From Siphonodentalium dalli (lineage: Eukaryota; Mollusca; Scaphopoda; Gadilida; Siphonodentaliidae), in the NCBI GenBank assembly GCA_032622095.1, contig CP136065.1, forward strand, positions 20,074,134-20,138,133: DNA of 64,000 nt. Direction: 5' to 3'. Shown one piece after another: positions 4,141 through 32,363 of this stretch (position 1 is the first letter of the stretch; every line of letters begins with the position of its first letter). Made by a program: the position numbers and the translations under genes. The notes below the pieces were generated by a model, which made no database searches, had not been told where the DNA came from, and saw only the letters and a program-made list of their open reading frames with translations.

Positions 4141-4209
4141 GCCAATGCATTCTCTTATATATGCGAGTCGACCATAGGTCGCCTCGCATATATAAGAGAA
4201 TGCATTGGC
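4141..4209. repeat. 69-bp palindrome, copy 1
   Basis: Begins GCCAATGCATTCTC and ends GAGAATGCATTGGC, with arms of 33 bp and a centre of about 3 bp. Only one arm mismatch is present (GCGAGTCG against GCGAGGCG), and it gives the palindrome an orientation. It could extrude as a cruciform or fold as a long RNA hairpin if transcribed. Confidence 0.97.
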
Positions 4210-4250
4210 TTAACACATTAAAAATTATTTTTTTAAAAGATTATTTTTAG

Positions 4251-4319
4251 GCCAATGCATTCTCTTATATATGCGAGGCGACCTATGGTCGACTCGCATA
4301 TATAAGAGAATTCATTGGC
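4251..4319. repeat. 69-bp palindrome, copy 2 (inverted)
   Basis: The reverse-complement orientation of copy 1, judged by its centre GCGACCTATGGTCGACT, with one extra mismatch in the right arm (TTCATTGGC). Together with copy 1 it makes a palindrome of palindromes. Confidence 0.97.
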
Positions 4320-4768
4320 ACAGGGCATAACTGTAACCATCACAATGTGGTCAATGAGCCGGTTCCAATGATATCCATATATGTATGGTTCTATTGAGAC
4401 AGACCGAAGATATTTTAGGCTGTTGAAGCTTTATTTGGCCGGTTTTGGCCGGTTTGTTGGGTAAAGGGTTAATCTCCATTCTATATATTTGTTCACCCTA
4501 CCGGAGTGTTTCACATCACTTTAAGGCTACGTTCATACGCTGGCAATATTGAACTGCAAACTTCAAAAATGCCAGCTGCAAAGGTTGTTTTGTTTTGTTT
4601 TGTCAGCTGGCATTTTTGCAAGCTATCGACTAGCTCGTGCTGGGTCGTGGCTGGTCGTCAACAATCAACGGTGATTTGTGATAACGGCGTATACCTCACT
4701 GCCGGTGGTCACAACACAAGGCCACTAACAATAATTGATTGTGTCTCTACCGTCCTTGATACGATCGA

Positions 4769-5137
4769 ATGGGATCGGGGTGTGTTCTCTGTGATTCTCA
4801 TACACACATAATTATACATCTGTACGGATCTCCGTTATATGAGGATATGATGATATGGTGTGATACAAAGAGTACCAAAAACGATGCTTCCCGAGTCATA
4901 AATGTGGGAGCTATAGGGGAGATGGTGGCAGGAATCACTATGAGTATCCGGCCATGCATTGCTTCAAATGTGCTTACTTCAGTGAGCGTGTACAAATTCT
5001 CAATTGTTATCGAAATGGTCATGTGTCGATCAGAATGGCATATTGAGATATCACTCAATTCAGATCAAGCTGGGGTTCGAATACGTGCCAACACCATCTA
5101 CCCAGACTGCGATATCGATGTAATTGTAGTGGTTTAA
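4769..5137 (+). other. unrecognised 122-codon open frame in the Harbinger-like element
   Basis: This is the longest open frame of the non-satellite part. Its start is an ATG at 4769 and it ends with a hydrophobic DIDVIVVV tail. No domain or motif is recognisable, and the opposite strand is also open over much of the span (4798-5058), which weakens the case for coding. It could be a remnant of a transposon gene or chance. I would not treat it as a gene. Confidence 0.15.
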
Positions 5138-5349
5138 AGGTGACTGCTTGTGTCGTGATGGTGGGGGCGATCTAACAGTAGGGATAATGGGATGTTAGTC
5201 TTTGGCATTGATAAAGCATATATGGGCCTATATAATTATTCATGCCATTTGAATAACAATATATTGTGTGCTTTTGATTAACTTGTGTTACTATTTATTT
5301 GATTTCTTTGTTTTGTTTAGCATCAGTACCACGTCGCCCCCAGTGTTCA

Positions 5350-5440
5350 CGCTGTCGGTAGCCAAATTAGCCAATGGCTAATCTTTTTCGAATTTGGCTA
5401 ATAAAAATTTCATTTGGCTAAACTTTTGGCTAAGCTTTTT
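5350..5440. repeat. left subterminal TTGGCTAA cluster of the hAT element
   Basis: Four or more copies of TTGGCTAA or its complement within about 80 bp, ending in ACTTTTGGCTAAGC. An almost identical run with the same strand orientation (ATTTGGCTAATAAAA then ACTTTTGGCTAAAG) lies at 6619-6665. The two subterminal blocks are therefore partly direct repeats rather than mirror images. In hAT families such clusters bind the transposase. Confidence 0.8.
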
Positions 5441-5714
5441 TTTTACCCCAAATGGAGACTGAAAGCATGGAGTCAGAAAGCTAATTCATAAAAGCGCTCA
5501 ATAGATCGACATTCAAGACGAAGTTAGGTGACGAAAGTATTTCATTAATTTCGTACTTATGAAATATCGTTCCGTAACAGCAAAAGGTAAGCTCTAACAT
5601 TTAGTGTACAGTAAACATATTTTTATTTCCAAATCTAACATAAATTTTGGCAAGTGGGTTTTCAATTCTGTGATGTGAACGATCTAGTCCGAAAATATCG
5701 AAAGTGGGAATATA

Positions 5715-6130
5715 TTGCCGACTGTACAAAGGGAAACCCGATCGCGGACAGTACAAAGGGAAACCCGATCGACAACTCTATCAACCAAGCGATCACACAG
5801 TGATATGCAATCATCTTTAGTTTTCACAAGACGGACATTCAAATACGCATGGACATTAAACCGACCGTGGTTGAATCATGACAATGTGAAGAAAGCAATA
5901 TTTTGTAAAGTGTGCATTGACGCTGGTATATAAGCAATTTGTTCGTAACAGGCTGTTTTAATCTGGAGAAAAATTACGTCATTCTGCACGAAACAGCAAA
6001 AGGTTATTATTTTACATTTAATCCCCTAATCCCCCATTGTCTGTCTGGTCACTCACGGGACTCCCGCACAATGCATGTTTATGATGACATTGTATTTATG
6101 TCGGTCGAGGTTTATGAGCATAAAGTGTAA
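5715..6130 (+). pseudogene. hAT transposase N-terminal zinc-finger remnant, frameshifted
   Basis: Frame one (5715-5933) contains KYAWTLNRPWLNHD followed by IFCKVC. Frame two (from about 5939) continues FVTGCFNLEK and then LHE. This order (W, PWL, FCxxC, F-x-x-G, a downstream H) is that of the TTF-type/BED-like zinc finger at the N-terminus of ZNF862-type hAT proteins. The two pieces are in different frames with a stop between, and the catalytic part is missing. The frames start at TTG rather than ATG. It belongs to the hAT element around it, and two near-identical copies of a 27-30 bp stretch (about 5718-5772) lie at its beginning. The family call is from recalled pattern, not a search. Confidence 0.6.
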
Positions 6131-7181
6131 GACAATAGATTAATCAGCCAAATGTGAATCACGACAGATATTTTGTGGCTATTTGTCGTCAATACCGATA
6201 CGGACAAAATAATATGCATGCTATTATGACAGATTGTAATTTGATAATGGCGTAACAATATTAAGTTATTAGTTTCCAGATGTCACTTAGATATTTTCGC
6301 AAGGATAAATATTTAATGATTTAAAAAATGATATTGATATAAAACAAAAAAATAATGACATTAAGAAGGACAATCTCGGGTTACCCCCCCCCCCTCCCAA
6401 TCACTCTTTCACATAAAGATTAATAAATTTGTAATAAATGATATATATAAAAATACTTCTAGTTCATAAAAATTATTTAAATTATTGTGTATTTTACCTG
6501 TGTCTGTTCGATTTTACGTTTTAGTCATTAATTGTGAACCGACCAGAAAACGATGATTTAATTTGGCCAATGTTTTTTTTAATTTGGCCAAAAAACATTT
6601 GGCTAAAGTTTTTTTCATTTGGCTAATAAAATTTTCATTTGGCTAAACTTTTGGCTAAAGTTTTTTTCGGTCCAGCGTGAACACTGGTCGCCCCCCCCCC
6701 CCCGTTTTTACCACGTCCCCCCCAGTTTTTCTTAACTTATTGTTTTGCTTAACATGAAGACCAACGAGTTTGTGACTAAAATTATTGGAATGACAAGTTT
6801 TTAGTTTGAGATGATACCCGGGAAGATTTGAATTCGTCGGTTATCTTCGTTGAGCCAAGTGCGGACCCACCATCTCCTGTCTATATGTGACGTTTATTGT
6901 ACTCATATATGAGCAGCATCCCAGCGAGAGAGCTGGCCATGGCGATATCACATTCCAACATGTCAAGTGAAATTATTTTGACTGCCTTAAGGATACCAAC
7001 ACGCACCGTGTTCCAATATATTGCAAACAGCTCATCAATCACGCAAAACGGCTGTCGTTCATTGATCACTACTAACGCTGATTTGTTGACAGCGGGCAGA
7101 AATTAATCCGTTTTGGCAATTTTGCAGCTGGCATTTTTGCAGTTTGCAGTGCAATGTTGCCAGCGTATGAACGTACCCTAA

Positions 7182-8404
7182 AGGCACGGGCGGCGTTCGT
7201 TGCATAAATATTCATATTTGTTCAAATCCCCATCAACGGAAGGAATATTAAAAAATATATAGTTTTGTTCATATGCCAAACATAATCAGCGCGTAATTAG
7301 TATATTGTCGTCAAGACGTACGATGGTGTACGTAAACATGAGCCTGCTCGTGTTGCAGAAGTTGTGCTTCTGTTTACATAACACAGCGCAATTCTATTGG
7401 TTAATCACTCAACAAATATATAAACGCTCTGTATTATTTCCATATCAGGAAAACAGTAACAAATAATGCTCTTTATGTTTACCATATCCGGTTCTAAACA
7501 AAAGCCAGGTAACGTAACGTTTTTTGCGTTTGTTTACACAACAAAGGGAACAAAATTGACAATAACATACTGTTTGTGTCATATTTCTGATTGGCATAAG
7601 AACAAGTTCTGTCTATATCTTACTATTCCTTCTGTTTATGGCGGTTTTTGACGGAGGTGAATATTTTAACAGCATACCCACCGCCAACACCGCCCGTATC
7701 TTTAATCAATTGATGAACCATTACAATGCATGTGGTATTTATAGTAAACTCTGTTCGTACGAACCCTCAGCATACTTGTCATACTTGCTGCTAATTTACC
7801 TTTTCGTGATTCTAGTTTATTTTAGTATGTTGTTTATAATGGTCTAATATACATATTATTGCAGAAGAAACATTGTGTTCCAATTAGTTTCCCATGAGAC
7901 CATAAATGTATCGACTATTGTAATGAATATTACAGTTCAATTGAGTCAGTTTCAAAGATTGATTGTGTAACTCGCTTAGACCGACCGAAGAACGCCGATC
8001 AATCCCAAATAAGAATGTTGCGTTTTCATTTATTATATCAGTATGGAATTTCTCTGGACTGGAATCGCTGTTGAATCAGATTCGGTATAGCTGACATCTT
8101 AACGCAAATACAAGAACCGATTGAAGGCACATATTTACAGACAAGCGTGGATCAATGACTATACCATCCCTAACAATATACATGTATATTCTATTAATAT
8201 TATATGTATTTGTAATTGTACTTTTCATGTGTGTATATTGCAAATACAATTATCCTATCATATCCTATATATACACTGGCCTAGTTATGTACATGTACCC
8301 CAACCGTGATCACACACTCATGATTCATGAACTGAGATCGTGCTGGCAGCAATAGAGACAAATCAGGCTTACTATATATCACATTTATTGACTTGTGACT
8401 GCAC
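7182..8404. other. segment inside the large inverted repeat, no firm gene
   Basis: This stretch lies between the Harbinger-like element and the right arm. It contains the first copy of the segment shared with 23389-24050, preceded by an ATTGG box at 7396-7400 and a TATA-like ATATATAAAC around 7416-7426, a believable but unproven promoter arrangement. A 66-codon frame at 8155-8355 has a run of hydrophobic residues that AT-rich sequence can give by chance. Confidence 0.4.
7629..7705 (+). pseudogene. frameshifted copy of a signal-peptide-like segment
   Basis: About 93% identical by eye to 23433-23509, while the flanks are much more diverged. It has one extra T in GCGGTTTTTGACGG, which breaks the frame. 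Apart from that the peptide would read MAVLTEVNILTAYPPPT, and two of the remaining differences (TAC/TAT and CCG/CCT) are silent. I read it as a disabled paralogue of the candidate exon at 23389-23538. Homology resumes downstream at about 7862-7915 against 24000-24050. Confidence 0.4.
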
Positions 8405-8780
8405 ATTAAAGTGATGTGAAACATTCCGGTAGGGTTATCAAATAGAAATGGGGAATAATTTTGCTCATAGATCTTCTTTTTACAAATATTATATCCAAAT
8501 TGGCAACACACAACGTCATTCTTATATATTTATTAATTGCAGTGATTCTCGAAGGTGAAATCGTTTTCGTTAGTTTGTCACCAATAGTTGCGTCCCGATT
8601 CGAGAAGTAAATATTTACAATTGAGCGTATATAGTACAGACGATGTTTTCTATGGAGTGGTACGGTCGATTTTGATTTTCTGCAATGTTACTAAAATGCT
8701 ACATTCCCCCAGTTGACATAGCGCCTGAATGCTAACTTGTCAGTTTAACATACCCGAACAAGTCCATAATATGTCTTTAA
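8405..8780. repeat. right arm of the ~5-kb inverted repeat
   Basis: The reverse complement of 3796-4524 without the piggyBac-like MITE. Colinear blocks include TTAAAGTGATGTGAAAC (with 4507-4524), the GGAGTGGTACGGTCGA block (with about 3917-3935) and GTCCATAATATGTCTTTAA (with 3796-3814). By eye the arms share roughly 80% of positions, so the duplication is not recent. Confidence 0.85.
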
Positions 8781-9881
8781 CTTATAATATGTCTCGGCAA
8801 ACTACATGCAGGGTTTATCTCCCTTGATGCCTCGGTAAGACCGCTGCTACCCGGCGGCATTTACCCACATTTGGTGGACTTCCGCGATATTAAAATATAT
8901 ACTAAGCTAGCAGAGCAACATGCTGCCCTTGTTAAATACACAAAATATCGAACAAAATTTGTGTAAATTTTGAACCTTAAGTTTGGAAAGTCCCACTAGA
9001 AGCAAAGAACTATATTTCGAAACGGTGTGATTTGGTTCTCCGGTTATTTTATCAGCACAAAAGTCAAAACGCACACGGGCGACAATGTCACGACAACACG
9101 CGTGGCAAGTCAAATACAAAAGTTCTAATTTGCTCCAATTTTGATTTGTAGCTTGCGAAAATCGTCACCAAACCACCTCTCTGATCCTCCGTTCTGTCAT
9201 TAAAAAGCACGTAGGAAATTTGACTTTCAGGCGATCTGTTTCGCCATTTTTGATGGGAAAACCCCGCGCTAAATATAGAAACCACAGACTAGTGTACCCA
9301 GTCGGTGACAGAGTCAGAAAGGAAGTATATATGACTGGTGCGCTCTGGTAAAGATTGATGTCTCGGTACCAGTGGCTGCACAGTAACTCACAAGCAAACC
9401 ATAGTCAGAAATGGTAACGCCACAAAGATAATATTATTAGCCATAAATATAAATTATAATATAAAATATATTGGCCTCAGAATTCCGTTAAAACAACTAA
9501 TCCTTCAAATTATTACAAAAAACTACGGCTTATTACTGCAGGTTTCTCATTCACCACACCAGAAGCTTCTAAATGCGGATAAAAAATCGGAGGTATTGTG
9601 TTCCCGTCGAGAGTGCATGGCCCAGCCATTGTTCATACCTAATCGTCGAAAGCAGTTAACGCGGTCATAATAGTTACATACTGCAACTATAAGACATCCC
9701 GCGAATACACACCCCACGAAACCCCGAAATGTGTTGTCCTGCGAGATATCCCATCATTATAGCTCAATTTGACACGGCCAGATTAGCCTTTCTACAATAT
9801 CCTAAAACAATAAAGCTTCTCAAATCATTGGCATAGTCAATAGAACTTTCACGAACTTGGACATTCCAACTACAGCTTTTA
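8781..9881. other. no gene seen; mollusc-type motif at 8814-8824
   Basis: TTTATCTCCCTT at 8814-8824 is the complement of AAGGGAGATAAA, a motif I recall as common in mollusc repeats. On the minus strand an ATGGCGAAACAG near 9255 sits in good start context but stops after six codons. Two overlapping minus-strand frames (8907-9285) show no known domain. I see nothing else. Confidence 0.4.
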
Positions 9882-9964
9882 CCGGATTCGGGATCGCAGT
9901 ACAACTTTAACGCGTCCCAAAATAACCGCATTCGGGATAGCACTACAGCTTTTAAAGCGACCCA
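9882..9964. repeat. 44-bp direct duplication
   Basis: The stretch starting CCGGATTCGGGATCGCAGTA is repeated with drift starting CCGCATTCGGGATAGCACTA at 9926. Both end in a GCGNCCCA word. Two copies only. Confidence 0.8.
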
Positions 9965-10938
9965 ATCTATTTATAAAACCTACATAGGACCATGACATTT
10001 TATAATTTGGCCCACAGTATACACCGTTGGCGTTAATAACTCGGCATCAGTCAATGGCCAGGTGCAGCCACACGTACGTGTAACTTCTGATGAGTGTTGA
10101 CATTGCCCACGGAGGTCACCCGACTCACATGATCATTTCGCAATATCCGTGCAATATATATAACCGAAATAGCGATCAATGCTATGCAGGGACGTGTTTC
10201 CTTGCGCGGAAAGATCTTAATTTGATTGAAGCAAATTAAGCGTATCGCTGGTCCCATTATGGAAGCTTTTCCTCGATACCGACTCATTTACAAGTTTCGC
10301 TAGACGTTGGCCGATATCTATACGTGGATGTTTAGCGCCTTAACTCATTTGATGGTTCCTGCCATGTGCATATCCATGATGCCATAGCATCACCATAGTA
10401 ACACATGTTACAAGTTACACGTACGTGGCTGAACTTGGCTATTATCTGACTTCAATTTATATGTTATGTCATTGTGTGGTTATTATCATCGATTTTAAAT
10501 TGGGCGTTTAAGTAGTATACACAAGTGTTGACAATAGTATTGGTCCATATAGATACCAGTTCAAACAAACAATGTTTATCTTGTCATACATTTAATCAAA
10601 AGTAAGTATAATTAATTTTGTCTGTATAACTCAGAATGAGTCAGGAGAAATGGGTATTTTCGATTCTGCATTGACATTTGACTTTCATGAAAAATTCAAT
10701 GTCATGACCTTACGCAAAAGTCATTAACAAATAACGGTTGAAATAAGTACTTGTCTTGAACATAATAAAGGTCACATTCTGTTAGTAAATTGCAAGAAAG
10801 TGTGAAAAATTAACACTTTGTTAACCCTACCACCAGTATTTAGGCATCTCATATTATGTTAAGAGTAGTGGTACCTCCGCCCATAGTTGAGGTATTAAGC
10901 CGTGGAATCTAACTTGCTTTCATGCGTTTTCTAAGGCC
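9965..10938. other. no feature seen
   Basis: AT-rich sequence with CACGTACGTG-type short palindromes near 10067 and 10418 and no supported gene, element edge or tandem repeat. Confidence 0.5.
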
Positions 10939-13548: not shown

Positions 13549-13999
13549 ATTATCAATTTATAATTCAGACGCAGAATAAGTAAGTCCATATCATAGTATG
13601 GTTGATTCTGCTTCCAACAAGTCATGCTTTGCATATGGATGTAGTCGACAGTAATTGCGAGTTATATATCCAAGTTTCACTGTTGTCACACCTTTAACCT
13701 CATAATTAAAGATTCGTGTTGTAGTGTCGTGTGATATAAGGCTTTCTTGAAATTGTCATTCGAAAATGGACTGAGAAACGTTGGTTCGTTGTGCACTGAG
13801 ATATTTATAGGATAATGCAGACAATGACACACAAATATGATTCAACACATACCGCATTAAACTGAATTGAAATTACAATTATCTAGAGTATATGATACAC
13901 TGGGGTGGCAAATTGTGATATACATGTAGGGTACATTTCATAATGTAAGCACCAAACTAATTTAGTCTATTAACCCTTTACCCAACAGAACGGCCCTGT

Positions 14000-14068
14000 G
14001 CCAATGCATTCTCTTATATATGCGAGTCGACCATAGGTCGCCTCGCATATATAAAAGAATGCATTGGC
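14000..14068. repeat. 69-bp palindrome, copy 3
   Basis: Same sequence and orientation as 4141-4209 except for one arm change (ATATAAAAGAAT). It ends directly at the TTAA used by the insertion at 14069-14072. Confidence 0.97.
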
Positions 14069-14659
14069 TTAAAGGATTTATTCGGTCTAGAAACTACATA
14101 ACGCAATCGGAAAGCCCTCCCTGTTGTGATTAAAATGATCCAAGTCCCATTCCGATCGCAAAATAAATAACCCGTAAAATAAATAAATAATACCACCACC
14201 GGTATTCGGAGATTTCCGTGACTAAACTACGAGTGACGTACTTGTGGGGAGCAAATTAAAAACACAGATTCGGAGCCGGAGTTTATTATGCTGACTGCGA
14301 TGACGTAATCGTAAGTCAGCCGATACTAAAATGCGGAGTCGTATGTGCGCGTGTGGTGTATAGATTACGTTACGCTTTGGTCGTTTATCTGGAATAGAAG
14401 GCAATAACTATGTGAATAAAGTAATTAATAACGCCTAGAATGGTTGTTGTTTTTGTAGCCATTAATAACATGCCGGCACGTGTCTGCTTTGGTGAATAGA
14501 TGGCAGTAATTAGTGCTTTGATTGTCTCGCGTATTCAATCGGTGATTTGTAATCACTCAGTGACTATTCATCAGTGTCAGTCGCGAACTTGTTTGCACTC
14601 TAAAATGCCACAAAGTGAATAGAAAGAACATTATCTCTCTGGTCATACACATATAAGAA

Positions 14660-14710
14660 GCGCCCAAATTAATATGGGCTGAATAATGTTAACTCTATTT
14701 AGGCGCTTTT
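14660..14710. repeat. inverted repeat AAGCGCC...GGCGCTT
   Basis: AAGCGCC near 14660 pairs with GGCGCTT near 14702, and CCCAAATTAATATGGG near 14666 is itself a near palindrome. It lies about 70 bp upstream of the THAP-like start codon. Function is unknown. Confidence 0.5.
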
Positions 14711-14770
14711 GTTTGTTGTTTTACTTTCGATATAATATCCCGAGTATCTGTCATCTCCACATATTTCAAG

Positions 14771-14860
14771 ATGCCTAGTAGATGTAGTGTGTTCAGTTGT
14801 GGGCGGGCTAGCGATCCATTATTTAGTACCTCAAAAAAGACAACACAGTGCGTAATTTAG
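14771..14860 (+). pseudogene. THAP-domain start fragment of a transposase
   Basis: The 29-codon frame begins MPSRCSVFSCGRASDP and stops at TAG (14858-14860). Met-Pro near the start, followed by Cys-x4-Cys, is the usual opening of THAP zinc fingers, and the spacing here is C5-x4-C10. The later C-x2-H part and the AVPTIF box are missing, and the sequence runs into the direct repeats at 14860-15033. It lies inside the TTAA element and supports its Kolobok assignment. The fragment is short, so chance remains possible. Confidence 0.4.
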
Positions 14861-15033
14861 AACGCTCTTTATTGTCTACCGCTTTCGTGAGACGGAAGCA
14901 TGGACGCTCTTTATATTTAATTGTCACAATACCATATACAAAATCACCCATGGCATATCGAAATAGAGCACGTTCATAATTGAGAACGCTCTTTATTGTC
15001 TACACCGCGACGAAAACATGGACGTTCTTTATT
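14860..15033. repeat. direct duplication, 124-bp offset
   Basis: GAACGCTCTTTATTGTCTAC starts at 14860 and again at 14984. In both copies it is followed by a CG-rich bit, then CATGGACG(C/T)TCTTTAT. CTCTTTAT-type words recur four times, suggesting an older internal repeat of about 50-60 bp. Confidence 0.85.
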
Positions 15034-15940
15034 AGAGCATTAACAGCTAATTAAGTCGTCCAACGGTGCACCTACAGCCAAATCAAGGCTACTACATACA
15101 GATACAGATAGAGGCAATCATTGGATTTTTTCTATGCTAACAATTCAAAATAATCCTCTCTAGAAAGTCAATATGTGCCATCAAAACGTAAAATAAAACG
15201 AACAACAAACACAAACTGAAAAAAATGCCAGGCTAACCTTCAATTACAAAAAAATGTCGTTATGCCAAACTGCAGCCTAACTAATAATTATTGTAGTTTC
15301 AACAGTCTGTTGTGTATTCGAGTTAATTATTTTGTTTACTCACTTATCGATCTTGACTGGAAGGATTTTAGCAAGCTGTTCACAGTCGTGCACTTCTCCA
15401 CACAAAATGTTTCGTGTGATGAAACAGACAGGAACATTATTATGACGAATATCAGCCATCATGATACATGTACTAGTACAATAACCACCAACTTTTTAAT
15501 CACACCCCATTTGTATTTATTTGTACGCATATAGCGCACAACGGGATGACACTAGTGTGTAAACTAGCTTCCGAAATTGGTACCATACAACGAAGAATGA
15601 AGTACCGGTATATGGCGTAACTTGTATTCTTTCAGAAACAGTTAAATTAGTTTCGCACGATATTCCGCTCGCTCATTGCATTTCTGCATAAATTAATCTC
15701 ATTTCAAACAACTGTTATCGCCTCAAAGTGCATTTTAGCCATCATTATTCGTTATATAATCCAACATTCTAGCAAATCCAGTTCATAATTCAGCACATTC
15801 AAACAGTTTTATTCCGTAATCGCTATTTATCGTAAAGGCGTAGGTAATTAACCAGCGTAATTTATCAACTCGTTACGCGATTGGCGGATTATTTAAAGCT
15901 CCACCCACCGCTGTCATCGGTAAGCGTCGATGCAGATGAT
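15034..15940. other. interior of the Kolobok-type element, no recognisable product
   Basis: A 90-codon frame (15262-15534) has no known motif and would encode a Cys/Asn/Thr-rich peptide of AT-rich type. I see no DDE transposase motif in it. I treat it as decayed transposon interior. Confidence 0.4.
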
Positions 15941-15943
15941 CGG

Positions 15944-15984
15944 TCATGTGACCGAGTTGTGGTCATGTGATCGCACTCACGTGA
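15944..15984. promoter_or_regulatory. cluster of three TCAYRTGA E-boxes
   Basis: TCATGTGA at 15944-15951 and 15963-15970 and TCACGTGA at 15977-15984 lie within 41 bp. These are the extended E-box form bound by MiT/TFE-type bHLH-zip factors in animals. They lie near the right end of the TTAA element, so they may be a transposon-borne regulatory cluster. No transcription unit is linked. Confidence 0.35.
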
Positions 15985-16257
15985 CTGACTTCGGATATTT
16001 CCGCGATTTTTTTAATATCATAATAATAAAAATACTATCTGCTCGATTTTGAATTTTCTTGGCGAAATGGGTCTGTTAGACATATATTATTAGTATTATG
16101 ACGATAAAAAATATATTTTTTTGACAGACTAATTCCTTTAACACATATTAAAAATGATAAAATTGTCAAAGAATGTAGAAAAATATTATAAAATTGTTAA
16201 AAAATGTAAGACAAAATTATAAAAATGTTAAAGAATGTAAGAACAAATGGTAAAAAG

Positions 16258-16295
16258 CCTATGGCCGACTCGCATATATAAGAGAATGCATTGGC
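16258..16295. repeat. 69-bp palindrome, right half only
   Basis: CTATGGCCGACTCGCATATA and the following GAGAATGCATTGGC match the right half of palindrome copy 2. The left half is missing and replaced by an A/T-rich run of degenerate AAATTGTTAAAGAATGTAAG repeats (16150-16255). Confidence 0.9.
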
Positions 16296-16445
16296 ACAGT
16301 GCATAACTGTAACCATCACAAAGTGGTCAATGAACCGTTTCCAATGATATCCATATTTGTATGGTGTTATTGAGACAGACCGAAGACATTTTAGGCTGTT
16401 GAAGGTTTATTTGGGCGTTTTTAGCCGTTTTGTTTGGGTAAAGGG

Positions 16446-17003: not shown

Positions 17004-19650
17004 TATCCCATAGGAAATGTTCAGATAATAAGTTAAACGTTTCTATAATAAAGCATCTTTGATGAGCAGTTATCCCATAGGAAATGTTCAGATAATAAGT
17101 TAACGCTCTCTATACTAAAGCATCATTGATGAGTAGTTATCCGATAGGAAATGTTCAGATAATAAGTTAACCCTCTCTATACTAAAGCATCATTGATGAG
17201 TAGTTGTCCCATAATAAATGTTCAAATAATAAGTTAAACCTTTCTATACTAAAGCATCTTTGATGAGTAGTTATCCCATATGAAATGTTCAGATAATAAG
17301 TTAACCCTTTCTATGCTAAAGCTCCATTGTCGAGTAGTTATCCCATAGGCAATGCTCAGATAATAAGTTAAACCTTTCTATACTAAAGCATATTTGATGA
17401 GCAGTCATCCCATATTAAATGTTCAGATAATAAGTTAAACCTCTCATTGACGAGTAGTTATCCCATGGGAAATGTTCAGATAATAAGTTAAACCTGTCAG
17501 TACTAAAGCATCTTTGATGAGTAGTTATCCCGTATGAAATGTTCAGATAATAAGAGAACCCTTTCTATACTAAAGCATCATTGATGAGTAGTTATCCCAA
17601 AAGGAAATGTTCAAATAATAAGTTAAACCTTTCTATACTAAAGCATATTTGATGAGCTGTTACCCCATATTAAATGTTCGTATAATAAGTTAACCTTGTC
17701 ATTGACCATTAGTTATCCCATGGGAAATGTTCAGTTAATAAGTTAATCCCCTCTATACTAAAGCTTCATTGCCGAGTTGTTTTCCCATAGGAAATGTTCA
17801 GATAATAAGTTAAACCTTTCTATACTAAAGCATATTTGATGAGCTGTTGCCCCATATTAAATGTTCATATACTAAGATAACACTCTCATTCAGATAATAA
17901 GTTAAACCTGTCAGTACTAAAGCATGTTTGGTGAGTAGTTATCCCATATGAAATGTTCTGATAAAAAGTTAACCCTCTATACTAAAGCATATTTGATGAG
18001 TAGTTAACCCATAGGGAATGTTCAGAGAATAAGTTAAACCTTTATTTACTAAGGCATCTTTGGTGAGTAGTTATGCCATAGGAAATGTTCAGATCATAAG
18101 TTTAACCATTTTTATACTAAAGTATCATACATGAGTAGCTATCCCATAGAAAATGTTCAGGTAATAAGTTTAACCCTTTCTATACTAAAGCATCAGTGAC
18201 GAGTAGTTATCCCACAGGAATTGTTCAGATAATAAGTTATACCTTTCTATACTAAAGCATCTTTGACAAATAGTTATCCCATAGGAAATGTTTAGATAAT
18301 AAGTTAAACCTTTCTATACTAAAGCATATTCGATGAGAAGTTATCCCATATTAAATGTTCGTATAATTAGTTAACCCTCTCATTGACGAGTAGTTATCCC
18401 ATATGAAATGTTCAGATAATATGTTAAACCTTTCTATACTAAAGTATATTTGATGAGTAGTTATCCATATGAAATGTTTAGATAATAAGTTAACCCTCTC
18501 TCTACTAAATCATCATTGATGAGTATTTATCCCATAGGAAATGTTCAGATAATAAGTTAAACCTTTCTATACTAAAGCATCTTTGATGAGTAGTTATCCC
18601 ATATTAAATGTTCAGATAATAAGTCAAACCTTTATTTACCAAAGCATCTTTGATGAGTAGTTATCCAATAGGAAATTTTCAGATAATAAGTTTAACCCTT
18701 TCTATAATAAAGCATCATCGATGAGTAGTTATCCCATAGGAAATGTTGAGATAATAAGTTTAACCCGTTCTATACTAAAGCATCATTGATGAGTATTTAT
18801 CCCATAGGAAATGTTCAGATAATAAGTTTAACCCTTTCTATACTAAATCATTATTGATGAGTAGTTATCCCATAGGAAATGTTCAGATAATAAGTTTAAC
18901 CCTTTCTATACTAAATCATCATTGATGACTAGGTATCACATTGGACATTTTCAGATAACAAGTTTAACCCTTTCTATACTAAAGTATCATTGATGGGTAG
19001 TTATCCCACAGGAAATGTTCAGATAATAAGATTAACCCTTTCTATACTAAAGCATCATTGGTGAGTAGTTATCCCACAGGAAATGTTCAGATAATACGTT
19101 TAACCCTTTCTATACTAAAGCATCATTGACGACTTGTTATCCCACAGGAAATGTTCATATAATAAGTTTAACCCTTGCTATACTAAAGCATCATTGATGA
19201 GTAGTTATCCCATATGGAATGTTGTGATATAAGTTAACCCTTTCTATACCAAATCATAATTGATGAGTAGTTATCCCACAGGACATGTTAAGATAAGTTT
19301 AACCCTTTCTATACTAAAGCATCATTGACTAGTAGATATCCCACATGAAATGTTCAGATAATAAGTTTAACCCTTTTTATACTAAAGCATCATTGACGAG
19401 TAGTTATCCCACATGAAATGTTCAGATATAAGTTTAACCCTTTCTATACTAAAGCAATTTTGATGAGTAGTTGTCCCACAGAAAATGTTCACATAAAAAG
19501 TTTAACCCTTTCTATACTAAATCATCATTGACGAGTAGTTATGCCATATGAAATGTTCAGATAATAAGTTTAACTGTTGTTCTATACTAAAGCATCATTG
19601 ACGAGTAGTTATCCCATAGAAAATGTTTAGATAATAAGTTTAACCCTTTT
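17004..19650. repeat. 67-bp minisatellite, about 39 copies
   Basis: The unit contains TTATCCCATAGGAAATGTTC, AGATAATAAGTT, CTATACTAAAGCAT and TGATGAGTAG; TATCCC recurs every 67 bp (for example 17071 and 17138). Copies are 80-95% alike by eye, with scattered deletions. Two subfamilies occupy blocks: GTTAAACC units dominate to about 18650, and 68-bp GTTTAACCC units, often with CCCACAGG, dominate after. Nearly every unit has in-frame stops, so no protein is implied. Confidence 0.97.
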
Positions 19651-24057: not shown

Positions 24058-24088
24058 ACTCACATATATAATAGAATGCATTGGCACA
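24058..24088. repeat. 69-bp palindrome, right-half remnant
   Basis: ACTCACATATATAATAGAAT followed by GCATTGGCACA matches the right half of the 69-bp palindrome and the start of its GGCACAGGG border. A GGGTTAA at 24127-24133 looks like a piggyBac-type right end, so a truncated MITE is likely. Confidence 0.75.
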
Positions 24089-24133
24089 TGATTTTCGCCA
24101 AAATTCAGGAAGACCCAGCCATGGAAGGGTTAA

Positions 24134-25140: not shown

Positions 25141-25386
25141 TCTAAAGCTACACATTACCGCCATTTAACAATTAATGTAACATCTGTAACCAGAGCTTTC
25201 ATTTCACTAAATGAGTAAAAACAATTTATTGTCATAATTACCTCAACTACCATTCTACGAGCATTGTATGTTCCAGAAAGATGCATTCAAGTCATAACAA
25301 ATACCAATTTGAACTCATTTTGGTGATATTTCCCCCAATAATGTTGTGCATGACATTTGCAACTTTTGAAAATTTTGACCAATATT
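25141..25386. other. no feature seen
   Basis: A short AT-rich gap between the TIR element and the 60-bp repeats. Confidence 0.4.
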
Positions 25387-25566
25387 GGGGGTGTGGGTAT
25401 ATATGTATAAGGTTCCGCAGGCTACGATCCACTTATCCACACGATTAGGGGTGTGGGTATATATGTATAAGGTTTCGCAGGCTACGATCCACTTATCCAC
25501 ACGATTAGGGGTGTGGGTATATATGTATAAGGTTTCGCAGGCTACGATCCACTTATCCACACGATT
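25387..25566. repeat. 60-bp tandem repeat, 3 near-identical copies
   Basis: The unit starts GGGGTGTGGGTATATATGTA and ends CACTTATCCACACGATTA. Copies 2 and 3 are identical and copy 1 differs by one C/T change (GGTTCCGC against GGTTTCGC). Since 60 is a multiple of three, both strands stay open and give 20-residue peptide repeats (25315-25708). These are a by-product, not evidence of a gene. The near identity points to a recent tandem expansion. Confidence 0.97.
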
Positions 25567-25880
25567 AACACACCCACGCATGACATTTTCATCCAAATTC
25601 GTTCAACAACAATTAAAAAAAAACAGTTCAAACAATTGTATGGTTGATTGTCAATTATCTCCAAAAGGGTGTGCCCACCTGGGTCTGCATGGGATACAGT
25701 CAATATAGAGATATGAAACTTGCGTATCAGCTAAGAAAATACTGCATAATATGGAAACTTCCAGACAGTAGTATGATTGTTTCCACACAATTCCCATGCC
25801 TTTAAGACACCATAAAGTATGATGAATTTGCACGAAATAATCAAAAGTGTCGAAATTTAATGGCATAACAGCTTATTGTG
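25567..25880. other. no feature seen
   Basis: AT-rich sequence following the 60-bp repeats, with no supported feature. Confidence 0.4.
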
Positions 25881-26140
25881 AGCTCACATTCAGTTGTGTA
25901 CTGACACATACAGCGAGCTAATCGTATATCGAGCTCACACACAGTTGATTGTGGCCCATACACATATCCATTTGTTTTCTAGTCGATGTAGGGCTATATC
26001 ACATACAGTTGTGTTCTGGTCCATCCCGGGCTATGTATGCATGTGCATATTGCTCATAGTCACTTGTGTCCTGATCCATGTCGGGTATCTATATATCTCA
26101 CTTTCAGTTCTGTTTTGGTCCATGTCGGACTATGTGTAGA
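25881..26140. repeat. decayed 50-70-bp tandem repeat, about 5 copies
   Basis: Words of the form CTCACA-TTCAGTTGTGTTCTG-GTCCATGTCGGGCTATGTAT recur from 25881, 25931, 26001, about 26055 and 26098, with drift and small indels. Open frames across this block come from the repeat. Confidence 0.7.
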
Positions 26141-26649
26141 GCTTACAGCAGTTGTCTACTCCTCGTTCGTATGAAACCCTCTTGCATCCTGTGGTCCTCA
26201 TGCATATTGCAAGACAGTCTTCAAATAAGTAGCTGTTTCTCCTCACCCCACCGTTTTGGGCAACCCTTATGAAGCCTTCCTCGGAGAGAACCCCGGTTTC
26301 GTAATTGTAGTGTATTTGAGGTTTTCCGGAAGCTGAAACTGAATATGAATAATTAATAATAATGGCTTTCCAATTAATATTCTATAATAATTTACCATTA
26401 GTTTCCAAACAAAGCTAATTTATTTAAAGGCACACTTAATTTTCGATTCACCGATTAGTTTTTTATATTGCCTTGATATACGGTTTTAATAACAATTTAT
26501 GCCATAAAATAGTATTAAAATACTATAAATCATCACCATGTGGAACGTCTGTGTCTCGGAATGTGCACATAGAGTAATAGACAATAGCTGAAATCATAAA
26601 ATCATTTCCCCCGTTATGGCTCCCAGAATGCAACAGAAATCCAATTATG
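26141..26649. other. no feature seen
   Basis: AT-rich sequence with no recognisable element or coding frame. Confidence 0.45.
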
Positions 26650-26722
26650 GTTTATTTTCAATAGAACGGGAATAACACTATATCCAAATATATAGAGTTA
26701 TTCCCCTTCCATTGAAAATAAT
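26650..26722. repeat. 73-bp foldback
   Basis: TATTTTCAATAGAACGGGAA pairs with TTCCCCTTCCATTGAAAATA around an ATATCCAAATATAT centre. There are a few mismatches in arms of about 30 bp. Confidence 0.85.
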
Positions 26723-27187
26723 ATACTTTGTGCAGAAACTTGACAACGGACCAGACGTCTGCATCGCAACAAAAACAACATGTTCACAGTGTATCGTTCA
26801 CATCGAATAAGTTGAAAATAAAATGTTTTAGAGCTTCCTCTTTCAAGTTCATAATAAGGAATGATATGTCCAACTAAACAAATGCATTTTTAGGTTTATG
26901 TGAATTGAATAATAAGAAATAACATTCATTCCTGATATAATTGCACAGTATATATACATGTAGACGGGTGTAGTTGTGCCGATCACAAATGTGATTAGGC
27001 CCATTATAGTGTGTAATTATACAATGTGTAATTACATGCAGGAAATGAAGTTTATTCCATTAATTATTATACATATAGCTGAAATGGTCAACTGCATGCA
27101 CGCTCTTTATGTGAACACGTATACGGAAGAGTATACAACATCCATTTAAAATTCACTGAAAAAAACAAGTATTGGAATTATACAGTT
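26723..27187. other. no feature seen
   Basis: AT-rich; an ATCACAAATGTGAT palindrome near 26980 is the only visible item. Confidence 0.4.
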
Positions 27188-27230
27188 AAGGCGCGTTCAC
27201 ATGGGGCTGCAAGATAATGCAAAATTGTAT
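27188..27230. mobile_element. possible solo Harbinger-type terminal repeat
   Basis: TTAAGGCGCGTTCACATGGG followed by GCTGCAAGATAATGCAAAATTG has the same layout as the left end at 4525 (TAA, GG, CGTTCA, TGCAA). No inverted partner was found nearby, so it may be one end of a broken element or a chance resemblance. Confidence 0.3.
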
Positions 27231-27419
27231 CCATGTGCTCGTGGATTGATTCCTGAAGGATGGTTGTTTGTTCAGTGTGGCGTCCATGCGGTTTTATCGA
27301 GGCAAACAATCTAAATGAAGTCTGTATTGGAATATTGAACCGATGTATGAATAGCCATGCATGGACGTAACTATAGGGCCTTAGTTCGCTGTTCGCGTGC
27401 CCATGCACACAACTTGAAA

Positions 27420-27560
27420 TTTCAAATTGCAGACAAAAAATTTCCAAAGTGCAAGAAATTCCATTGCCCTTCTGTGGGCTGGAAATTTATATTGATTACC
27501 AGTGCAGTCCAAGCAGTTGACTTATAAAGAGGAAAACGTTCGATTTTTGGTCTAAAACAC
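27420..27560. repeat. dispersed repeat family, copy 3 (partial)
   Basis: TTTCCAAAGTGCAAGAAATT, CCATTGCCC, TGTGGGCTGGAAATT and the later TTTTTGGTCTAAAACACTGA follow the order seen at 11760-11960. It is more diverged than copies 1 and 2. Confidence 0.45.
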
Positions 27561-28230
27561 TGATTGCACACTGAGTATATGGACTCGTTCCTAGCGCTCC
27601 GCCTCCTCTACGCTAAGGCGCAACGTTCCAGCATGATTGCGGAATCGTTACATCATGGAGTTGCACGGAACAGTCACATACGAGACTAACTAAGTATACT
27701 TCATGGTTGGATTATCAAACTAGCAATGCCGAAAATGCGAATATATGGCGTATGGATGACCAGCAAAGAACGAGGATTGGGTTTCTTCACAGTTACATGT
27801 AAGCCGACAGGATCGAAATTCATACTTCTAGAATAGACTTCCATCACATTGTGGGTTATTATTGAAATGTATAGGACTACAACAGTGCATGCCGTCTTCG
27901 ATAGTAGTTATGTGATCTTTGTAATCTCACTATATTTGTATAAGTCTTATCTACCAGAAAACCACTCATTATTGTTGTAGAAATTGACAAAGTGCTAAAT
28001 AAACGCTACAGTCCAGCGCCATGGCGGTCGATAATGTGGACGGGAATATGCAAGGCAACATATATTAATGGAGAACAACATTGCCGCTTCAGTAGCGGGA
28101 CACGCTTTGTTTTCATTTTGTAGCGAAAGATAAACTTAGGTCCACATAATAAGCTGCCGATATAAAAGCGACGTACTATATAGAAAGTAAAAGTTGACCA
28201 TACACCAATACAATGTTTTCACTGGAGATA
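27561..28230. other. no firm gene; short frame near 28020
   Basis: GCGCCATGGCGGTCG at about 28016-28030 has a strong start context, but the frame (MAVDNVDGNMQGNIY) stops after 15 residues. A small CCGCTTCAGTAGCGG hairpin lies near 28084. I see no element edge until the MITE at 28231. Confidence 0.35.
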
Positions 28231-28282
28231 TGTGACCCGCCATATCAAATCCAGTCGTAAGTCGGGATTTTATTTACCCTGT

Positions 28283-28351
28283 GCCAATGCATTCTCTTAT
28301 ATATGCGAGTCGACCATAGGTCGCCTCGCATATATAAGAGAATGCATTGGC
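28283..28351. repeat. 69-bp palindrome, copy 4
   Basis: Identical in sequence and orientation to 4141-4209, but inside a different MITE type. Confidence 0.97.
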
Positions 28352-28569
28352 CTAACAATTTTTTACAATTTTAATAATTTTTTCTTGTATTCTTTAACAA
28401 TTTTATAATTTCACCCACACAGAGCCCCAGACAAACATGAGCAGACGACACTATTCTATATGCTTCTATATATATGTGGGGCTGCCTGTAGGGTAATGGA
28501 TGTTTTTTATTTTATGTCCTAAAAATTGTAAGAAACATTTATTTAAAAAAAATGATAAAAAATTGTTAG

Positions 28570-28638
28570 GCCAATGCATTCTCTTATATATGCGAGGCGA
28601 CCTATGGTCGACTCGCATATATAAGAGAATGCATTGGC
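28570..28638. repeat. 69-bp palindrome, copy 5 (inverted)
   Basis: The reverse-complement orientation of copy 4, as in the TTAA-flanked MITE. Followed by CACAGGGTAAAC. Confidence 0.97.
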
Positions 28639-28722
28639 ACAGGGTAAACAAAATCCCGACTTACGACTGGATTTTATATGGCGGGTCACATATCCTACAG
28701 AGCAATCGATACATAGATGATT

Positions 28723-28852
28723 CACAACGAGTCCAAAGTTTATAGCGGAATTTACAAAACGAGTCCAGTAAATTAGGTCTGGTGAGGTCCAGATTCAATT
28801 TACTGGACGAGTTTTTGTAAATTCCGCTATAAACTGGGGACGAGTTGTAGAT
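28723..28852. repeat. 130-bp foldback
   Basis: ACAACGAGTCC, AGTTTATAGCGGAATTTACA and CGAGTCCAGTAAATT pair with the inverted right arm over about 50 bp, around a GGTCTGGTGAGGTCC centre. Only a few mismatches are present. It begins about 30 bp after the MITE's right end, and no TSD is clear. Confidence 0.9.
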
Positions 28853-29167
28853 TATATTTATTACATGATCCAAAAACTCGACAAAACATACTTACATCTA
28901 CAAATAGAACGCGAAACTAACATCGGCATGCGACGACGTTTAACGTAACTATGCGTTGTTTACCCACGTAAAGAAATAGTCCCAGATAGATAATTTGTCG
29001 TTGAGGGATATACATAAAATATGCGATAAATTTCTTGTAAAATGAGATTGAAGCAAGATTCCTTAAACATTTCGGCAAGTGACTCTACAACTGACGATTG
29101 ACCGAATAAGGCTCAAAAATTCAAATATCTGTAATTCTCTGTAATTTTGTAATCTATCACACGAAGG
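28853..29167. other. no feature seen
   Basis: About 315 bp of AT-rich sequence leading into the 38-bp minisatellite. Confidence 0.4.
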
Positions 29168-30040
29168 AACTAGCCATCGTGGGCTTCGTGGCTCATATCA
29201 TGAACAACTAGCCATCGTGGGCTTCGTAGCTCATATCATGAACAACTAGCCATCGTGGGCTTCGTGGCTCATATCATGAACAACTAGCCATCGTGGGCTT
29301 CGTGGCTCATATCATGAACAACTAGCCATCGTGGGCTTCGTAGCTCATATCATGAACAACTAGCCATCGTGGGCTTCGTGGCTCATATCATGAACAACTA
29401 GCCATCGTGGGCTTCGTGGCTCATATCATGAACAACTAGCCACCGTGGGCTTCGTGGCTCATCATGAACAACTAGCCATCGTGGGCTTCGTGGCTCATAT
29501 CATGAACCAGTAGCCATCGTGGGATTCGTGGCTCATATCACGAACAACTAGCCACCGTCGGCTTCGTGGCTCATATCATGAACAATTAGCCATCGTGGGC
29601 TTCGTGGCTCATATCATGAACAACTAGCCATCGTGGGCTTCGTGGCTCATATCATGATCAACTAGCCATCGTGGGCTTCGTGGCTCATATCATGAACAGC
29701 TAGCCATCGTGGGCTTCGTGGTTCATATCATGAACAACTAGCCATCGTGGGCTTCGTGGCTCATATCATGAACAACTAGCCACCTTGGGCTTCGTGGCTC
29801 ATATCATGAACAACTAGCCATCGTGGGCTTCGTGGCTCATATCATGAACAACTAGCCACCTTGGGCTTCGTGGCTCATATCATGAACAACTAGCCATCGT
29901 GGGCTTCGTGGCTCATATCATGAACAACTAACCATCGTGGGCTTCGTGGCTCATATCATGAACAACTAGCCATCGTGGGCTTCGTGGCTCATATCATGAA
30001 CAACTAGCCATCGTGGGCTTCGTGGCTCATATCATGAACA
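29168..30040. repeat. 38-bp minisatellite, about 23 copies
   Basis: The unit contains CATATCATGAACAACTAGCC followed by ATCGTGGGCTTCGTGGCT; GCTTCG recurs every 38 bp (29221 and 29259). Most copies are identical. Single changes (CACCGTGGG, CACCTTGGG, GTAGCTC) recur in several units, a sign of ongoing exchange. Each unit carries AGCCA and TGGCT that can pair around CGTGGGCTTCG. Edges are sharp. Confidence 0.97.
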
Positions 30041-30802
30041 AATTTGCATGCGTGCGAGCGAACGATTCATTAATGTGTACAAGTGCGTAAAAGAATATGT
30101 CTAAATCCTCACTATAACTGTAAAGGTACAGTCTTATATGTGTTTTATAATATCATGATACAACTTGCATTTTGTGTTAAGATTCGACATATTCATTGGG
30201 GAAATCAATGCATTAAAGGTACTTAATCCGATACGATGGTCCCCATATCATCATATTCCAACAAAAACGTTGTTTCAAATTCCGATCCAGTTATCACAAT
30301 CGATTAATTCCCCAAAAATAATGCTAACCACAGTTAACTATAGTATAAAATTGCCCAACATTGCATCAACATTTTGTTCAACGATATTTTGCCGGTTTGT
30401 CCAATATCTGACACAAAAAAGTCACTTGATTTAGAGTTATCTATCTTCAACCGCAATGTGGTCCGAGACCGTCTTCTCGTCGACCATTTACCGGGCCACC
30501 TAAAAAATTATCGGTGGTGAAAAATAATAGATTTCAAAAATCGATATCTGTCACTCTGAACGTTGATGGGCGGTTCATCGAATCAGATATTTGTTACCCC
30601 CGAAGCCAAGGAAATAGTAATTTGCGAGCGTTAATTAGGATTTTGCGTCTTTAATTTTAATATGGGAACTATATTTCTCTATGACATGCAATGAAGTAAG
30701 ACTGAGTAAGTACACAGCGGACCAGCTGCGGGATGTGATGCATAGATTGAAAGTGGTTATGAAAAGAAATTATTGTTAAGCGCATATAATACAAACAATC
30801 TA
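30041..30802. other. no gene seen
   Basis: An 89-codon frame (30165-30434) has no recognisable motif and AT-biased content. I see no repeat or element edge. Confidence 0.45.
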
Positions 30803-30890
30803 GTGCTTTTGAGTGGATACCAAGCCATTGGCGAAAATCAATATTTATCTCGTTCACATGAGATCATTTACGGTATCCACCCAAAAGCAC
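30803..30890. repeat. 19-bp inverted repeat with 50-bp spacer
   Basis: GTGCTTTTGAGTGGATACC at 30803-30821 pairs with GGTATCCACCCAAAAGCAC at 30872-30890 with one mismatch. It could be the ends of a tiny MITE or a hairpin. Confidence 0.85.
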
Positions 30891-31222
30891 AAGATATATA
30901 TTCAAGAAAACCAATTTGTTAGACTTCCATTTATATTAAGAGTATAATATACCAGTTAGTCCACCATGTTTAGCTTTCGCCACGAACAGCTGATTTGTGT
31001 TGGAGCTGCTGGTGTTCTGAAACATTTCGATGGCAGGACCAGAGAGATAAGTCGCATCTGAAAACGGTATAATGGATTACATGTAGTCTATGTTGGCATT
31101 TATAATGCTATCCTTGTATACATGCCACCAGATCCATTTGCCGCCAGATATATGAACGTCCAATTGCATAAACATGCTGTCAGACAGATTTTCCTGCGCG
31201 TGAATACACACTTATGATGGTA
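30891..31222. other. no feature seen
   Basis: AT-rich sequence with no supported feature. Confidence 0.4.
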
Positions 31223-31660
31223 TCAGCCCCCCCCTTCGGTACGCGGGATTCAGGGTGTTTTGAAGCCGTACGCGGGATTCATACCCCGGAATTAACTGGT
31301 ATTCGGGTTCAAGCAAAACATCTTGGACGCAGGTTTTGATGGCGCAAAATAATATTTTGTGCTAGTTATCTGTATGAATGAGTGGGTAGAATAGCTTCTT
31401 GGGCATATTCGACCACCATGCCATCCTAAAGTATCATTAATCGTATCATAACGGCCTCATAACGCCCATAATACTTTACTCCAATATCATGTCAGGTAAA
31501 ATGGATCATAATGTGGCTATGTAACTTCTGCTTGTATATGCCTGATATTAAAACAGTCAATTTGCATGTCATTTATATCATATTATTTCTTATCATGTAT
31601 TCAGGATTCACCCCCCAAAATTAACTGGTATTCAGGATTCAGGGGGGGGGGGGTCACAAG
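31223..31660. repeat. related pair of C/G-run segments
   Basis: A C run at about 31227 and a G run at about 31640 face each other. AATTAACTGGTATTC followed by GG(G/A)TTCA occurs at about 31290 and 31618 as direct repeats, and GTACGCGGGATTCA is doubled at 31239 and 31269. It looks like a decayed local duplication. The long C and G runs may be miscounted in the assembly. Confidence 0.6.
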
Positions 31661-31697
31661 CATTTGGAATCACTTCGAATAACCCACACCCTTCCGC

Positions 31698-31740
31698 GAG
31701 TCACTACGACTAACTCTGGTTTTAGTCATATTGTGACTAA
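31698..31740. repeat. two TTAGTCA...TGACTAA dyads
   Basis: AGTCACTACGACTAAC and TTAGTCATATTGTGACTAA are short palindromes of the kind found again at 32642-32859. They form the left part of the cluster, now separated by the MITE at 31952-32415. Confidence 0.7.
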
Positions 31741-32005
31741 GTTACACCAAGAATAACTCTAATTTCAACACTGCCTTAAATTATGCTTAATATTCATTTA
31801 TAAATATTAAATTTCCATTGCATCGCAGTTCTATTGGATCTATAATGAACGAATTGATGTGAGGATGGCATATATATAAGAAAATCACCTCTCGTATCAA
31901 ATTCTACACTATTTGGATAAACTGTTCTTATTCCATGACACTATAGACATATGTGACCCGCCATATCAAATCCGGTCGTAAGTCGATATTTTTTTTTTAC
32001 CCTGT

Positions 32006-32074
32006 GCCAATGCATTCTCTTATATATGCGAGTCGACCAAGGGTCGCCTCGCATATATAAGAGAATGCATTGAC
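32006..32074. repeat. 69-bp palindrome, copy 6
   Basis: Same orientation as copy 4, with two changes (CCAAGGGTC in the centre, CATTGAC at the end). Confidence 0.95.
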
Positions 32075-32294
32075 CTAACAAATTTTTATCATTTTTTTAA
32101 TATAAATGTTTCTTACAATTTTTAGGACATAAAATAAAAAACATCCATTACCCTGCAGGGAGCCCCACACATATATATATAAACATATAGAAGAGTGTCG
32201 TCTGCTCATGTTTGTCTGGGGCTCTGTATGGGTGAAATTGTAAAATTGTTAAAGAATACAAGAACAAATTATTAAAATTGTAAAAAATTGTTAG

Positions 32295-32363
32295 GCCAAT
32301 GCATTCTCTTATATATGCGAGGCGACCTATGGTCGACTCGCATATATAAGAAAATGCATTGGC
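32295..32363. repeat. 69-bp palindrome, copy 7 (inverted)
   Basis: Orientation as copy 5, with one change in the right arm (AGAAAATGC). Confidence 0.95.

Follow-up and report, generated by a model that had tools for sequence, protein, structure and literature searches.

A core of paired 69-bp palindromes lies within at least four types of miniature inverted-repeat transposable element ends in a scaphopod genome

Miniature inverted-repeat transposable elements (MITEs) with differing ends and a shared interior are already known, and the closest precedent for the elements described here is that of CMITE families I–VI of Acropora corals, which are TTAA MITEs with differing terminal repeats and one shared interior that is more conserved than the ends. 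The coral elements are approximately 100 bp long, their interior spans 75 bases, and the number of copies in A. millepora is estimated at 1,600 (all with TTAA); tandem copies and piggyBac-type transposases are described as well, and the origin of the interior is given as unknown. The same work gives CC(C/T)T as the terminal motif of piggyBac-type (TTAA) MITEs (PMC2872659). Related cases are the MER6/V-domain exchange, in which a conserved non-coding domain occurs in V-SINE (a short interspersed element, SINE) and in a mariner-derived MITE (PMC6887750), AgaP2-P12MITE of Anopheles, which is built from parts of two subfamilies (PMC1562414), and the pearl/DTC84 elements of bivalves, modular MITEs that contain internal repeats and, close to the repeat junction, a conserved palindrome (PMC5139131); a further paper (PMC8227079) bears on families shared between species only. 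Here we describe a core, built on an inverted pair of 69-bp palindromes, which an initial annotation had noticed in a 64,000-bp stretch of the genome of the scaphopod Siphonodentalium dalli (GCA_032622095.1, contig CP136065.1, positions 20,074,134 to 20,138,133; hereafter the window). The core sits in at least four outer-end types, which we refer to as A, B, C and D, in this one genome.

The core has a fixed edge, CCCTGTG, and is found in at least four families with differing ends and two kinds of target duplication. A shared first base marks the core in the consensus sequences of all four families (on both sides for A and B), with the edge on one side of D being one base shorter (CCTGTG), and the orientation of the core towards the nearer end was the same across the four types. 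Over the first 81 bp from CCCTGTG, A was 98.8% identical to B, 98.8% to C and 92.6% to D; outside the edge the flanks were unrelated among types. The A consensus was CCCTTTACCCAACAG, with outer sequence of 20 bp on one side and approximately 140 bp on the other, that of C (eight loci) was CCCTTTGAGTGCCAGG with one palindrome, the two sides of D were CCCTTCCATGACTGG and CCCTTTCATGACGGG, and B had TGTGACCCGCCATATC on both sides. Loci L012 and L013, which are duplicated segments, were excluded from the consensus sample, and for the same reason its C set was made without L024, L031 and L036. The two ends of B mirror each other as far as the core edge, whereas in A and in D the flanks show no such inverted correspondence inside the short ends. 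These data support the proposal in the initial annotation that one core lies within MITEs of wholly different ends and target duplications. The palindrome pair is indeed common to differing MITE types, but the shared part is larger than had been proposed, as it extends past the palindromes into an A/T-rich spacer (142 bp at 89% for A and B, 141 bp at 87% for A and C).

Copies of three types were flanked by TTAA on both sides in most cases (28 of 32 for A, 5 of 8 for C and 16 of 20 for D), and their consensus ends CCCTTTACCC (A), CCCTTTGAGTGCC (C) and CCCTTCCATGAC (D) carry the terminal motif of TTAA MITEs, CC(C/T)T. Type B had been described as TA-flanked, and this did not hold strictly: 17 two-ended copies had TA in ten cases, TT in four, AA in one and unequal bases in two. 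The 2-bp duplication was nevertheless equal in 15 of the 17 copies (0.49 expected from base composition alone), and an A before it and a T after it were seen by eye in 17 of 17, giving the context A-[A/T]-[A/T]-T (AWWT). The sequence fits either a 2-bp duplication within AWWT or a 4-bp AWWT duplication with ends GTGACCC. A strict TA duplication is the defining feature of Tc1/mariner-type MITEs, and type B does not show it. Under either interpretation of the B duplication, two kinds of integration are involved.

The abundance of the core was determined by counting words in the 2.23-Gb source genome as exact matches, with reversed patterns as controls, all of which gave 0. The 33-base core start was present in 123,995 copies (62,106 and 61,889 on the two strands). 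There were 37,386 matches to the core plus the A-left bases, 34,383 to the core plus the A-right bases, 11,506 to the core plus the C bases, and 20,026 ends with the core plus the B end; these counts are lower bounds because exact matches were required. A first look for type D gave 5,774 candidates genome-wide, and 40 that were scored were 87–100% identical to the query. A hand tally of 100 core places listed, all from the first 6 Mb of contig C1 and with many of the C and A places in large tandem blocks, gave 43 A, 28 C, 19 B, 4 D and 6 with neither flank; the last six represent three independent loci (the paralogous pairs L037/L118 and L040/L120, and both sides of L021). The presence of several flank types genome-wide was thus borne out, and the possibility that all copies carry a single flank type, which the initial annotation had named as fatal to its proposal, fails because the genome-wide counts show four end types. 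At approximately 0.73–0.92 Mb of contig C1, core copies recur every ~14,558 bp and then every ~11,175 bp, and this regular spacing points to large tandem repeats carrying A and C elements.

As single strands, the palindromes at 4141–4209 and 28283–28351 of the window are each predicted to fold into a hairpin with one stem mismatch (-35.4 kcal/mol, z -15.6). The region 4100–4360, around the type A copy A1, is predicted to fold into one long continuous foldback stem (z -23.3), which stops at the CCCTGTG edge save for four further pairs past a small loop. The B cores hold a second inner segment around GAGCAGACGACACTC; L037 carries it too, and so does L050, where it adjoins another element end. 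As a second hairpin-like module (GAGCCCC..GAGCAGACGACACTC..GGGGCTC) it lies within B cores and, in diverged form, beside or inside other elements (L037, L050 and L118).

Conservation was compared among 20 A, 20 B and 20 D loci, taken from 100, 100 and 40 listed, respectively; A and B copies were chosen by exact outer words and D copies by whole-element similarity. Paralogous pairs were retained in the samples in which they occurred (L048/L049, L053/L054, L052/L057, L063/L082, L068/L073 and L070/L075). Pairwise identities (18 A, 15 B and 19 D loci used) for the palindromes and the outer ends, respectively, were 97.3 and 98.6% versus 94.7 and 96.6% in A, and 91.5 and 90.3% versus 87.0 and 88.6% in D, while in B the first palindrome (98.8%) and the second (94.6%) compared with 94.5 and 92.7% for the outer ends. 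Type D was the most diverged (87–91% pairwise versus 93–99% within A and B). The initial annotation had suggested that arms so alike reflect a constraint or repeated copying from the partner arm. Across the A, B and D copies, with 16 rows used for the second A palindrome and 12 for the first B palindrome, there were 169 changes in a single arm and five double changes, of which one was complementary, with 5.6 doubles expected under independence. There was therefore no signal of arm-to-arm copying or of a pairing constraint in the resident copies, and we rejected both; the likeness of the arms reflects youth and a shared master rather than copying in place, since the arms change independently. 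When the consensus sequences are compared, A, B and C (CGACC/GGTCG) differ from D (CTCCC/GGGAG) in both arms at two stem pairs adjoining the loop, and the stem mismatch at position 28 is retained across A/B/C and D. These paired changes, which amount to one comparison, are compatible with a hairpin constraint on the masters. In L045, L069 and L076 the palindromes have an internal duplication or are collapsed to a short remnant, as slippage in hairpins would give.

Copies of the core with neither flank type, for which the initial annotation had proposed a search, do exist. The core followed TTTTA but not the B end at 1,729 genome sites, a rarer form of the B-type core in which the B end is missing on one side or both. 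We hand-picked 35 end-less candidates among 100 places listed on contig C1, with pairs preferred, so that the proportions are not rates; the same applies to our first sample of 40 core loci, also hand-picked among 100 listed on that contig. Fifteen of the 35 had no recognisable B end on either side, ten had a B end, either complete or cut, on a single side, two had B ends on both sides and eight show one side only. The 15, together with L021 and L120 from the first sample, formed a two-sided end-less set of 17 loci. Divergence from the B core, for the loci that were aligned (16 of 17 end-less and 22 of 30 B), had a median of 1.5% (range 0–7%, n = 16) in the end-less copies versus 2.1% in the B copies (n = 22), a difference with a p of 0.06 over the whole core and 0.37 over the inner part; end-less L126 was identical to the B core over 368 bp. 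These end-less copies are as young as the B copies and so are not worn-out B copies, an origin by decay that we consider ruled out. Their youth indicates that the unit is still arriving at new sites in the absence of B ends.

The junctions of these loci were mixed. Direct repeats were sought at 29 loci, a set that includes L115 and L142, which have B ends on both sides, and L119, L121 and L122 were excluded both from this set and from the two-sided comparison as being of types D, D and B. Alignment gave direct repeats of 13 bp in L108, 12 bp in L114, 11 bp after clipping in L126 (where AACAAGAGCATGAGGAT was seen by eye on both sides) and 8 bp in L111. Three of the 29 loci thus had direct repeats of at least 11 bp near the junctions (none among 812 mismatched pairs), and inverted matches of at least 11 bp occurred in 2 of the 17 two-sided loci (none among 272 mismatched pairs). 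One of the latter is L108, whose flanks are inverted over 11 bp immediately next to the core, and the other is L104 (C1:38117920-38118720), in which a 44-bp inverted repeat with two differences encloses the end-less core; this repeat had no other match in the genome at the search sensitivity used. Both a repeat-first and a core-first origin fit L104. With 60-bp flanks there were also weak inverted matches in L105 (score 8) and L110 (score 9), scores that were reached by 7.7% and 2.6% of mismatched pairs, respectively. Neither kind of repeat is a general feature of end-less copies, as 24 of 29 loci had no direct or inverted repeat of at least 8 bp in their 40-bp flanks. Based on these mixed junctions, it looks like there was more than one route of insertion.

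The explanation to which we give an about even chance is that the paired palindromes form the interior of the non-autonomous DNA elements of one very large complex, an interior acquired ready-made by the founders and carried as a passenger of each family's transposase. Each family's founder would have taken the core up as a whole, and its descendants would then have multiplied by means of a transposase that reads the family's own outer ends, probably a piggyBac-type enzyme for A, C and D and a different transposase for B. Copying or capture while a break, or the gap after excision of a transposon, was being repaired is, we infer, the most likely mode of acquisition; the base of the long foldback stem would have set the captured edge, and the founder bursts would have come afterwards. 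Repair capture is favoured because A and D show no duplication at the core edge, because most of the end-less loci tested have no duplication, and because the core edge coincides with the base of the foldback stem. The kind of enzyme needed for three of the families is, or was recently, active, since intact piggyBac-type transposase genes are present (128 genome matches to PF13843), with gene copies up to 99.9% identical. Among 28 transposase loci that were read there were no C or D end words and only approximate A ends: A-like words with 1–3 mismatches occurred in 11, following TTAA only in L160, L162 and L163, and the start of L163 (CCCTTTACCCATCACATCGG) was the nearest to the A left end. 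Two groups of piggyBac-type transposase loci, L152–L156 and L144–L148, consist of copies that are approximately 99% or more identical, one group having the end TTAACCCTTTATCTGCTATACGCG.

Several observations weigh against this explanation. Reading the 28 transposase loci revealed no recognisable autonomous element bearing A, C or D ends, and neither a switching event nor an empty site was caught. The shared sharp edge also fits the insertion of a real transposon. Four of 29 loci (L108, L111, L114 and L126) have direct repeats of 8–13 bp, with 1.1 expected, and such repeats count against acquisition by repair capture because it does not require them. The empty sites lacking only the core that the initial annotation had proposed to look for were seen at none of the copies inspected by eye, 20 of them B-anchored and 20 A-anchored and all chosen by their outer ends; several of the copies are duplicated segments, and single-founder bursts would hide such sites.

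A serious rival, although we consider it unlikely, is that the core is or was a foldback transposon in its own right, with ends CCCTGTGCC and GGCACAGGG, which inserted into four founders and is still making end-less copies. A foldback (FB-like) element is defined by moving on its own with its own target duplication. The same sharp edge in all consensus types and the closeness of the end-less copies to the B core (0–7%, median 1.5%) argue for this origin, as does a T-run plus A on one side and TA plus an A-run on the other, which bracket the unit in B and, by eye, in 13 of the 17 two-sided end-less loci and are what a TA duplication would give. However, the search pattern for end-less copies itself demanded TTTTA on one side, the A and D consensus sequences have no duplicated bases at the core edges, and direct repeats of at least 11 bp were found in only 2 of the 17 two-sided loci (L108 and L126), at unequal distances from the core. 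The missing core-less copies in the 20 B-anchored and 20 A-anchored samples also speak against it, though founder bursts would hide the empty sites. It is possible, if doubtful, that the hairpin-pair core is a mobile MITE parasite, which would enter unrelated founders, be multiplied by their transposases and reach new sites without them. We are rather doubtful, too, that the core has been kept as a helper of transposition, as a hairpin or a host-factor site, such that MITEs with the core outgrow others. The palindromes are somewhat less diverged than the outer ends in D, in A and for the first palindrome of B, and the two paired stem changes beside the loop, with one mismatch kept, would suit such a role; yet the second B palindrome is no better conserved than the outer ends, the arms change independently within copies, and the samples, which for A and B were selected by exact outer words, are small.

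The remaining alternatives were given less weight. That the end-less copies are reverse transcripts of B elements, made by the machinery of long interspersed elements (LINEs) and primed at the A-run, so that the core spreads partly as RNA, is improbable: the direct repeats of at least 11 bp at L108, L114 and L126 and the complete B end at the other end of the L114 copy are consistent with such an origin, but 26 of 29 loci have no such repeat and L108 adjoins short tandem repeats that are able to yield direct repeats. Very unlikely as a general account is that the folded core copies its neighbourhood, where a break and fold-back would lead to the copying of the other flank and so create inverted ends, such as those of B, from adjacent sequence. 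The inverted repeat of L104, the inverted flank of L108 and the B ends, which mirror each other right up to the core, would be expected from flank copying; 15 of the 17 two-sided loci, though, have no inverted match of at least 11 bp, and the A and D flanks lack the mirrored arrangement. L104 may just as well be an insertion into an older inverted repeat, as 2 differences in 44 bp against a core that is 1.1% from the consensus gives no date. Flank copying may apply to L104 and L108. Descent of all types from one ancestral MITE, with ends that diverged by point mutation, is scarcely credible; A, C and D all begin with CCCTT and use TTAA, but the flanks are unrelated up to one sharp base while the adjoining core is 93–99% alike, and B has other ends and another duplication, such that this origin is close to refuted.

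Within the window, the seven complete palindromes and two halves listed by the initial annotation were present where claimed, and the ends and TTAA flanks of copy A1 were as described (Table 1). A 27-base arm matched the window 16 times at up to three mismatches, versus 0 in each of 100 shuffles. The second TTAA MITE is a type A element, but its right outer flank is ATAA and a nested insert splits it; its length is explained by this separate 2,065-bp TTAA-flanked element in the spacer, which has short inverted ends and no long reading frame (the longest stop-free run is 104 codons). The half palindrome near 24,060 exists but belongs to a third type, D, that the initial annotation had overlooked; the D end beside it has 3 mismatches in 26 bases, a match not reached in 100 shuffles. 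The inner segment of the second B copy has the opposite orientation to that in the first. There were no C ends in the window, and an Rfam scan of it gave no match. A 29-bp satellite, TTAAAGCAACCCTGTGTATAGTGCCTGTA, with approximately 1,056 copies and 92% matches, occupies the last 30 kb of the window (33668–64000), and tandem arrays of 67–68-bp and 38-bp units are found at 17004–19649 and 29168–30041.

Table 1. Elements, palindromes and nested insert in the 64,000-bp window (window coordinates).
Feature	Position	Strand	Details
Type A MITE, copy A1	4115–4468	+	TTAA 4111–4114 and 4469–4472; core 4135–4325
69-bp palindrome 1 of copy A1	4141–4209		
69-bp palindrome 2 of copy A1	4251–4319		Inverted copy of palindrome 1
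Type A MITE split by nested insert	13974–16445	+	Complete palindrome 14000–14068; half 16263–16295
Nested 2,065-bp element	14073–16137		TTAA duplication 14069–14072 and 16138–16141; ends AGGATTTATTCGGTC / AGGAATTAGTCTGTC
Type D fragment	24059–24129	-	Half palindrome 24059–24085; D end 24108–24133 including TTAA
Type B MITE	28231–28690		Flanks ATA / TAT; core 28277–28644; palindromes 28283–28351 and 28570–28638
Type B MITE	31952–32415		Flanks ATA / TTT; core 32000–32369; palindromes 32006–32074 and 32295–32363

How MITEs originate, and why a few of them reach enormous numbers, is an old question. In S. dalli a core is common to unrelated ends, and three of the types each number approximately ten thousand copies or more. 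Such sharing separates the role of the ends, which determine the transposase, from that of the interior, which may contribute success, capture or structure, and both contributions could be tested by swapping parts in a laboratory transposition assay. Our literature searches did not find a core shared between TTAA and non-TTAA elements, or a hairpin-pair core at such a copy number, although either may be in print.

Compared with the systems described, the S. dalli core resembles the MER6/V-domain in that one domain is present in different kinds of mobile element, but there the exchange is between a SINE and a DNA element, whereas here several end types of DNA elements share a hairpin core. In AgaP2-P12MITE the two ends come from two subfamilies of one superfamily, while here a core lies between unrelated ends, and the internal repeats of pearl/DTC84 are satellite-like, the likeness in that case being one of described architecture. 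Types A, B, C and D share with the CMITEs, as these are described, the presence of several end families around a conserved interior, as well as tandem copies and piggyBac-type transposases in the genome. Here the core is approximately 190–370 bp with palindromes, its exact word occurs 123,995 times, and one family (B) has a different duplication and unrelated ends. From what is described of the CMITEs, the S. dalli elements therefore differ in the sharing of a core across two types of duplication, in the hairpin pairs and in the very high copy number.

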